Shown here: positions 3,658 through 6,301 of the stretch, one piece after another
Numbering within the stretch: the stretch's first letter is position 1
Layout of the letters: each line of letters begins with the position of its first letter
DNA from: a candidate division TA06 bacterium SM23_40
GTDB lineage: Bacteria; LJUI01; SM1-40
Assembly (NCBI GenBank): GCA_001303705.1
Contig: LJUI01000089.1
Span: forward strand, 1 to 10,059
Length of the DNA stretch: 10,059 bases
Direction: 5' to 3'
The notes under the pieces: model-generated
The model's database searches: none
What the model was told of the DNA's origin: nothing
The model's input: only the letters and a program-made list of their open reading frames with translations
Position numbers and translations under genes: made by a program

Positions 3658-4047
3658 ATGATCAGCTATGGTTTTGAGAAACAGACGGATCTGCCGTTCG
3701 GACGAGCGCTGGAGGTAGTGTCGGAAGAGTTGAAGAAGGAGGGATTCGGGATCCTGACGGAGATCGACGTAAAGGAGAAGTTCAGGGAAAAACTCGGCAT
3801 CGACTTCAAGAAGTATATCATACTTGGCGCATGCAACCCGCCGCTTGCACACCAGGCGATTCTCGCCGAGGAGAACATCGGGCTGATGCTGCCCTGTAAT
3901 GTTATTGTGTATGAGAAAGAGAAGGGAACCGGGATCGCCGTCATCAAGCCGACAGCGGCGATGGGGATGATCGCTAACGAGAAACTGAGAGGGGTCGCGG
4001 AAGAGGTCGAGGCGAAACTGAGAAAGGTATTCGATTCCATTCCGTAG
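3658..4047 (+). CDS. DUF302 domain protein
   Basis: 129 residues forming one DUF302 domain (PF03625) from end to end. Family landmarks are all visible: the N-terminal YGFEKQTDLPFGRALEVV, the TEIDVKEKFREKLGIDFKKY segment (about residues 34-53), the core ILGACNPPLAHQA (about 55-67) and IGLMLPCNVIVYE (about 74-86). Biochemical function is unknown; the family often sits near heavy-metal or redox genes, and copA lies 2.3 kb downstream. The two cysteines (in GACNPP and LPCNV) are characteristic of the family. There is no signal peptide, so it is probably cytoplasmic. AAGGAG (3645-3650) is 7 nt before the ATG. It is separated from ccmD by 147 bp and may have its own promoter. Its coding sequence is richer in Lys/Glu AAG and GAG codons and less GC-rich than its neighbours, possibly just because of protein composition. 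Confidence 0.93.
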   Translation: MISYGFEKQTDLPFGRALEVVSEELKKEGFGILTEIDVKEKFREKLGIDFKKYIILGACNPPLAHQAILAEENIGLMLPCNVIVYEKEKGTGIAVIKPTAAMGMIANEKLRGVAEEVEAKLRKVFDSIP

Positions 4048-4238: not shown

Positions 4239-4245
4239 GGAGGAG
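4239..4245 (+). promoter_or_regulatory. Strong ribosome binding site that fixes the selenoprotein start
   Basis: GGAGGAG ends close to the ATG at 4250 (GGAGG is 6 nt away). This is one of the best Shine-Dalgarno matches in the window. It serves an open frame of only 38 codons before TGA, unless the TGA is read through. The GTG at 4391, which a standard caller would choose, has no comparable site upstream. Confidence 0.8.
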
Positions 4246-4249
4246 AACG

Positions 4250-6301
4250 ATGCGGTACGAGAGAGTGCTACTGATCGCCATGGCGATCGTGTTGTCGGTC
4301 AGTGTCCTGTCGGCGATTGCATCAGAGCGGATGGTGCTGGCAGAGGGATTCACTAACACCGGGTGAGCGTCGTGTCCGCCGGCCGACAGTGTGTTGGCCT
4401 TTCTTGCCGAAACATACGATACCATTCTGGCTGTCATTTCGTACCATACCTGGTGGCCGAGTGGAGCGGATCCGTTCTATCTGGCGAATATCGCCGAGAG
4501 CACTGCCCGGATCAACTACTACGGGGTCAACTACACCCCTGATTCCTGGTTCGATGGAACGCTCCATGGAGAGTGGATCTGGACTACCTGGGAGAGTAAG
4601 GTTCTGAGCCGGTACAGTGTGGCGAGCCCCCTCGAGATACACCTCGACGCGACGCTGGCTGAGGTGCCGATGGGAGGCAGGGTGACCGCCACTGTGCTGC
4701 AGACCGAACCATCCGTGCCCTCGGATCTGCGGCTGCGGTTCGCAGTCACCGAGTCTGCCCTCGGTTACGGCGGCGAGGAGTACGAGGATGTGTTCCGCGA
4801 CATGTTCCCGGATGTCGCGGGAGTCTCGATCGTGACCATCTTCGGCGACAGCATCACTGAATCGGCCGATTTCATCGTCTCTCCGGAGTGGGATCTCGCC
4901 AACTCCGAGATCGTCGTCTTCGTTCAGAGCGATGTGACGCGCGAGGTCGTCCAGGCGGCGAAGATGGATGTCCCTCTCGACGTGCCATACTGCAGGGCGG
5001 TCGGCGTCGTCGTGAATGACAGCGGCGGCGACGGCGACGGACGGGCAGAGGGGGGGGAGACGGTCGATCTCGTCATCACTATCGAGAACGGCGAGGGCTG
5101 GCTCGATGCCACGAATGTCTTCGCGGTGCTGAGGACTGACGATGCCGATGTCACGGTGACCGATTCGACAACTGCTTTCCCCGACCTTCCCGCGGGATCC
5201 TCGGGGTACAACGAAGGAGATGACCTCACGATCTCTGTGGCGCCGGGTGCGGAGCCGCACCTCGCCCGGTTCGAGCTCGAGATCAGCACAGATCCCCCGA
5301 ACTTCGCCCCCACCGATAGTTTCTCGCTCATCATTGGACATCCCGCTGTGATGCTCATCGACGACGACGGCGGCGGGTCGCTGGAGGAGGAATACCGCAC
5401 AATACTTGCTGATAGCCTGCACCTCTTCCACGATGAATGGTCGGTGGCAGAACAGGGATCCCCTGACGGGGCCTGGCTGGCGAACTCTCAGGTGGTGATC
5501 TGGTTTACGGGGACGGACACCGCGACGACGCTCGGACCGGACGATATCGTTGCGTTGAGCAGCTATCTCGATCAGGGCGGAGCGCTGTTCATCAACGGCT
5601 CGGGAATCGGGCGGGACATCGGATCGGGGCCGTTCTACGCGGACTACCTCCACAGCACCTATGTGGGGACGACGGCTGACTATGTCGTACGGGGCGTGCC
5701 CGGGCATCCAATCGTCGGCGACTCGATGTTGGTGCTGCTGTGGACAGAGCCCAAGGAGATCATCTTGCCGGCAACAGGCGGCGACGCCATGCTGTACTAT
5801 GACCAGGGTGGGGATGCCGCTGTCACGTACGATGACAGCTATCAGGTCGTGTACCTGGGATTCAGATTCGAGGCGATCGAGGAAGGCGCTCCGGTGGGCA
5901 TCCGCAAGTATGAACTGATGGGGCGGATACTGAACTGGATGGGGATCGTTGGTGTCGGAGACAAGGGCGAGGAAGGCGGTTTTGCCCTCGGAGAACCGCC
6001 TCGGCTTCTCGCTCCTAATCGCCCGAATCCATTCCCCGACGCTACTACTATTCAGTATGTGGTGCCCGGCCGGTCGTCCGGTCGAGTCCCGGTCAGGCTG
6101 ATGATCTACAATATTCTCGGGCAGCGGGTACGCACCCTCGTCGACCGCGAACTGACTCCGGGAGCGTACACCGTGACCTGGGATGGACGCGACAGTGCGG
6201 GGATCCAGGCCGGCAGCGGCATCTACTTCTGTCGCCTGGAGGCCGGCGAGGCATCCGATGTGAGGAAACTGGTACGTATGAGAGGTACCAGCTCGAGATG
6301 A
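4250..6301 (+). CDS. Secreted Omp28/thioredoxin-like selenoprotein (in-frame TGA at 4364-4366 read as Sec39)
   Basis: 683 residues if TGA (codon 39) is selenocysteine. Order: signal peptide (1-24, cleavage near AIA-SE); thioredoxin-like/Omp28-like domain (about 25-240) with EGFTNTG-U-ASC, so the redox motif is U39-A-S-C42, a candidate cis-Pro97 in TPDSWFDG and the family-type end [15 protein letters not shown] (223-237); a CARDB/Ig-like module (about 248-360) with an acidic [10 protein letters not shown] motif that could bind calcium; a Rossmann-like module of the ThuA/glutamine-amidotransferase-like sort (about 365-560: [28 protein letters not shown]); and an FlgD-like C-terminal domain (588-682: [29 protein letters not shown]) of the type IX-sorting style. 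The role is probably an extracytoplasmic thiol-disulfide oxidoreductase; the substrate is unknown. Alternatives are a nonsense mutation or sequencing error replacing Cys. Recoding of TGA as Trp or Gly is excluded because neighbouring genes use TGA as stop. Confidence 0.82.
4381..4399 (+). promoter_or_regulatory. Candidate bacterial SECIS element
   Basis: GGCCGACA (4381-4388) pairs with TGTTGGCC (4392-4399): 8 bp including one G-U wobble, closing a 3-nt GUG loop (4389-4391). The loop begins after 22 nt counted from the TGA (4364-4366). This fits what is known of bacterial SECIS elements: a stem-loop inside the coding region, apical loop roughly 16-37 nt past UGA, and a G in the first two loop positions (E. 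coli fdhF has GGU at about 19-21 nt). It would recruit SelB with Sec-tRNA. It overlaps codons 44-50 (PADSVLA). Confidence 0.7.

Follow-up and report, generated by a model that had tools for sequence, protein, structure and literature searches.

An in-frame TGA almost certainly encoding selenocysteine in the gene of a predicted secreted thioredoxin-like protein of candidate division TA06 bacterium SM23_40

The TGA codon at positions 4364-4366 of the window (the whole stretch of 10,059 nucleotides that was analysed) almost certainly encodes selenocysteine (Sec) in a predicted secreted thioredoxin-like protein. As a whole, the gene is best explained as coding for a Sec-decoded, exported thioredoxin-fold thiol-disulfide oxidoreductase with the site U39-A-S-C42, a reading that is held with high confidence. 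The proposal of a selenoprotein, made earlier from the letters of the window, is strongly supported by a conserved Sec/Cys (U/C) column in the family alignment, by the Sec machinery of the genome and by paralogs with a TGA.

The gene and its paralogs

The window is contig C38 of a metagenome assembly of 2.88 Mb in 189 contigs, which is about 90% complete. The gene was recognized as an open frame interrupted by one TGA, with homology found on both sides of that TGA (Table 1). Upon re-reading of the sequence, the ATG with its GGAGG, the signal peptide and the single TGA in a frame open to 6301 were all recovered as the sequence-only reading had described them. The TGA is followed by ASCPP, after which the frame remains open until a TGA stop at 6299-6301. 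Over the gene's stretch, two stops occur in the 684 codons of its own frame and 18-19 in each other frame of the strand, and the codon-position GC is similar upstream and downstream of the internal TGA.

Table 1. Features of the putative selenoprotein gene (window positions)
Feature	Position	Strand	Basis or remark
Shine-Dalgarno-like GGAGG	4239..4243	+	6 nt upstream of ATG 4250; read from sequence
Putative selenoprotein gene, Omp28/HBP35-like exported thioredoxin-fold protein	4250..6301	+	683 residues with Sec39
Signal peptide, about residues 1-24	4250..4321	+	hydrophobic helix at the N-terminus, in sequence and model
Thioredoxin-fold domain, about residues 25-125	4322..4624	+	model pLDDT 93.5 and fold matches
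Proposed Sec codon TGA, residue 39	4364..4366	+	aligns with HBP35 Cys48
SECIS-like hairpin GGCCGACA-GTG-TGTTGGCC	4381..4399	+	loop starts 22 nt after UGA, G first
Omp28-type beta-sandwich, about residues 126-245	4625..4984	+	Pfam Omp28, structure 2r2c
Ig-like then alpha/beta domain, about residues 246-565	4985..5944	+	full-length model, moderate confidence, pLDDT 75
Type IX secretion C-terminal sorting domain, residues 592-675	6023..6274	+	TIGR04183, Pfam FlgD_ig, weak Por_Secre_tail

The neighbours of the gene in the window are ccmA, ccmB, ccmC, a gene for a DUF302 protein, one for a copper-type P-type ATPase (copA) and one for a MATE transporter. The DUF302 gene (window 3658-4047), located between ccmC and the selenoprotein gene, was the sole complete neighbour checked with a TAG stop.

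Seven further members of the family were found in the same genome. Three of them have a TGA at exactly the position of that in the window gene, with the motifs FTNTG-U-GGC (contig C124), FTNYA-U-TGC (C58) and FTWTS-U-SSC (C19). Another three are Cys forms, FTNTS-C-GPC on both C121 and C187 and FGSVF-C-QAC on C5. The last one (L024, C19:60324-61001) adjoins the Sec paralog of C19 and lacks a C-x-x-C site (VMVCAGSPES); it still has the family domains and a type IX-like tail. In the C58 paralog (L179, 1703-3961), a 33-nt tandem duplication with an in-frame TAG (DIGDEPFYHD-TAG-DIGDEPFYHD) was observed, which is an assembly artefact or a recent lesion. The frame past this TAG extends to a type IX-like tail.

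Omp28-like genes are linked to sel genes twice in this genome. tRNA-Sec and selD lie just upstream of the C58 Sec paralog, and selA-selB directly downstream of the C5 Cys paralog. At the latter locus (L180, G000:C5, 2242-9977, minus strand) the apparent order is glmM, glmS, omp28-like, selA, selB, all in one direction, the omp28-like gene being lipoprotein-like and of the Cys form. In other genomes, 15 regions around selA were inspected and showed no such linkage, which was therefore not used as evidence.

Fold, export and predicted function

The AlphaFold model of residues 1-250 has a pLDDT of 93.5 and consists of a thioredoxin fold joined to an Omp28 beta-sandwich. In the model, U39-A-S-C42 is located where helix 1 starts, and the invariant Pro97 precedes a strand, at the position of the thioredoxin cis-Pro. 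The best structure match was HBP35 (Z 24.9, 219 residues), followed by the DUF1223 protein 2axo and Omp28 2r2c. The kinship with Omp28/thioredoxin-like secreted proteins, which the sequence-only reading had named for this gene, is borne out by these fold matches, by Pfam and by the homology that flanks the TGA.

For the sorting domain, the TIGR04183 score is 24.9 bits at a cut-off of 23, a narrow margin. A homolog of the type IX translocon protein SprA, the component searched, was found in the genome over the cut-off, with 504.6 bits summed. Several Sec members of the family end in dockerin-type domains in place of the type IX tail, which was seen by Pfam in L037 and by eye in L159-L162.

The protein is probably an exported, surface-bound thiol-disulfide selenoenzyme with a U-x-x-C site. 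In the mechanism proposed, the UGA at 4364 would be read as selenocysteine by SelB with tRNA-Sec(UCA), aided by the hairpin at 4381-4399. The product would be exported via the Sec pathway, and the type IX system would then probably pass it on, either to the cell surface or to the outside. At that location, with U39-A-S-C42 replacing C-x-x-C, the thioredoxin-fold domain would work as a thiol-disulfide oxidoreductase, Sec39 attacking the substrate and Cys42 resolving the intermediate. A redox activity is suggested by the model and by analogy with HBP35, which reduces insulin; its C48S/C51S double mutant does not, the thioredoxin activity being abolished (PMC2907840). The nearest Cys homolog, L026 from WOR-3, is located behind ORFs that by eye resemble genes for a peroxiredoxin and a TlpA-like protein, in agreement with a redox role.

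A selenoprotein for heme or metal handling, through HBP35-like surface heme binding or in cytochrome c maturation, instead of a general thiol-disulfide enzyme, is considered unlikely. It would agree with the flanking ccmA, ccmB, ccmC and CopA-type ATPase genes and with the hemin binding that HBP35, the closest fold, has besides its thioredoxin activity. However, no heme binding is shown by the Trx-domain matches; hemin binding has been demonstrated for HBP35 only. Paralogs lie elsewhere, beside selD or glmS-selA-selB, and the ccm neighbourhood is therefore not general. Moreover, a protein with a type IX tail belongs outside, at a distance from the cytochrome assembly of the periplasm. The general thiol-disulfide oxidoreductase is thus preferred.

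Selenocysteine decoding in the genome and the family

The genome encodes a tRNA-Sec(UCA) (77.7 bits), and profile searches scored 558 bits for selA, 392 bits for selB and 374 bits for selD. All of selA, selB, selC and selD, which the earlier reading had proposed to look for in the source genome, are hence present. SelD with Sec is a known type of selenoprotein, and the selD gene of this genome (L014, G000:C58, 439-1365) has an in-frame TGA of its own at the usual Sec/Cys position, CAGUASK.

A phylum-wide search for relatives gave matches only in the window's own genome, and relatives were therefore taken from the species collection. A scan of this collection with a four-row alignment yielded 58 related loci, many with a TGA at the same place. 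For the family set, 50 genomes of many phyla were searched with a 26-row alignment (A3) and 124 non-redundant rows were aligned. The column of the window TGA holds Cys in 62 rows, TGA in 54, another residue in three and a gap in five, counts which are approximate because a few rows are overlapping fragments. Such an accumulation of TGA in a single column is far beyond chance. Both Cys homologs and TGA homologs, the two kinds that the earlier reading had named as support, were thus found at the aligned column, the in-frame UGA of the window gene being aligned with the Cys of its homologs. No TAA or TAG occurs at this position in the 124 rows. The U/C column accounts for nearly every in-frame stop in the family; outside it, a single TGA and a single TAA were seen as strays, both in frame-changing rows. 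Sec rows retain the motif's second Cys.

Among the matches listed, members with a TGA occur in 19 genomes besides the window's own, and every genome with such a member shows Sec machinery. In 16 of the 19, selA was over the cut-off. In the remaining three (G002, G042 and G017), tRNA-Sec exceeded the cut-off and selB is present, the latter cut by a contig end in G017. With these three counted as Sec-decoding, TGA members were present in 19 of 25 Sec-decoding genomes and in none of the 24 lacking selA (Fisher p = 9e-9), a value that is indicative because the non-decoding group was defined by selA alone, best matches were listed and the genomes are related.

A hairpin is present just downstream of the UGA, and its signal is clear for the family and modest for the window gene alone. 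Compared with codon shuffles, the 51 nt downstream showed better folding in TGA rows (z −1.6) and no such gain in Cys rows (0.02). A simple bSECIS-like score was also used, for which the loop had to lie 16-37 nt after the codon with a G in its first two bases. It reached 14.6 in TGA rows versus 6.6 upon shuffling, and 4.2 versus 5.1 in Cys rows. Since codon shuffles alter the protein sequence, synonymous-codon controls were added. Against these, the excess was 7.4 in TGA rows (p 3e-9), compared to 0.1 in Cys rows (p about 1e-11 for the difference). For the window hairpin itself the excess over the synonymous-codon controls was modest (p = 0.04), and the overall downstream folding of the gene was unremarkable (z −0.37). 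The hairpin of the C58 paralog was not significant (p = 0.20). A hairpin with an apical GTCT is common to many Zixibacteria.

It is very improbable that the TGA is a damaged TGC or TGT codon, due to a sequencing or assembly error or to a decaying pseudogene, even though a metagenome assembly supplied the window as a single contig and a real lesion, the duplication with in-frame TAG on C58, is found in at least one paralog. Besides three paralogs, about 50 more members have TGA at this codon, and these come from independent assemblies, finished chromosomes included; the codon is always TGA, never TAA or TAG, and solely in Sec-decoding genomes. This recurrence at one codon in independent assemblies refutes error or decay for the family. 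Genome-wide reassignment of TGA to an amino acid such as Trp or Gly would also give a TGA within an otherwise open frame, but has a negligible probability and was rejected, as the aligned residue is Cys, neither Trp nor Gly, and as five other complete window genes (orf1, ccmA, ccmB, ccmC and copA) and the selenoprotein gene itself terminate in TGA, which therefore is still a stop here, as had been noted before.

Comparison with known systems

Sec-containing relatives are on record as the hypothetical protein GOS_C of an ocean survey, for which 74 Sec sequences, a U-x-x-C motif and a Trx-like fold were reported (Zhang and Gladyshev 2008; PMC2398784). An inventory of 2026, covering 119 families of prokaryotic selenoproteins, entered GOS_C as NF045500, likewise with U-x-x-C (PMC13188914). 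The NCBIfam name of NF045500 is Omp28-related selenoprotein; among the papers searched, none joins Omp28 with a selenoprotein, and one contains both selenocysteine and type IX secretion, the former mentioned once. The sequence-only reading had presented the selenoprotein as new and its family as absent from the standard lists. The latter was wrong in view of GOS_C and NF045500, and the novelty stands in so far as the window protein lies outside the NF045500 clade and far below its cut-off. As relatives have been known from ocean DNA since 2008, the window gene is a divergent new member and not a new family.

For comparison, true NF045500 members were fetched from Neomarinimicrobiota genomes. 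Their Sec (U-P-Y-C) falls in the same thioredoxin-domain column, and they share the thioredoxin and Omp28 domains and have tails similar to that of the window protein, either type IX or dockerin. In contrast, the window protein scored 32.7 bits (N-terminal half) and 29.1 bits (full length) against a cut-off of 200. The 26 A3 members were all weak matches to NF045500 (best E-value 7e-20), with none of them at the cut-off. The NF045500 rows form one clade with 100% support, from which the window protein is excluded, as are the remaining Sec members of this analysis. The tree requires 17 Sec/Cys changes, of which at least seven are forced by starred branches.

The window gene belongs to a wider, largely uncatalogued set of Sec members. 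More likely than not, selenoproteins of the Omp28/HBP35 type that are exported to the surface form a far larger radiation, of which the NF045500 clade is a single branch. This radiation would span uncultured phyla (Zixibacteria, Gemmatimonadota, Calditrichota, Neomarinimicrobiota and the phylum of the window itself), often with several Sec paralogs per genome and with at least seven Sec/Cys exchanges at one site. If so, these would be selenoenzymes displayed outside the cell and cut short by current annotation. Standard annotation stops such genes at the UGA or begins after it, by which exported selenoenzymes of uncultured bacteria are hidden. As one active site is available in numerous Sec and Cys versions, with several of them in single genomes, the advantage of Sec over Cys outside the cell becomes testable.

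Two other relatives each correspond to one domain of the N-terminal model, Omp28 (PF11551; PDB 2r2c) by homology to the beta-sandwich and DUF1223 (PF06764; PDB 2axo) by homology to the thioredoxin domain. Neither structure is reported as a selenoprotein. The window protein stays under the Pfam gathering score for both families, with 28.8 bits against 34.9 for PF11551, which the C124 paralog passes with 47 bits.

HBP35 of Porphyromonas gingivalis (PDB 5y1a) has the same two-domain fold with the thioredoxin motif in the same place, and, as predicted for the window protein, is a type IX protein, reaching the cell surface via the Por (type IX) system (PMC3120885). The two differ at the motif itself, Cys-x-x-Cys in HBP35 and Sec-x-x-Cys in the window protein, and share 16% identity in the structural alignment.
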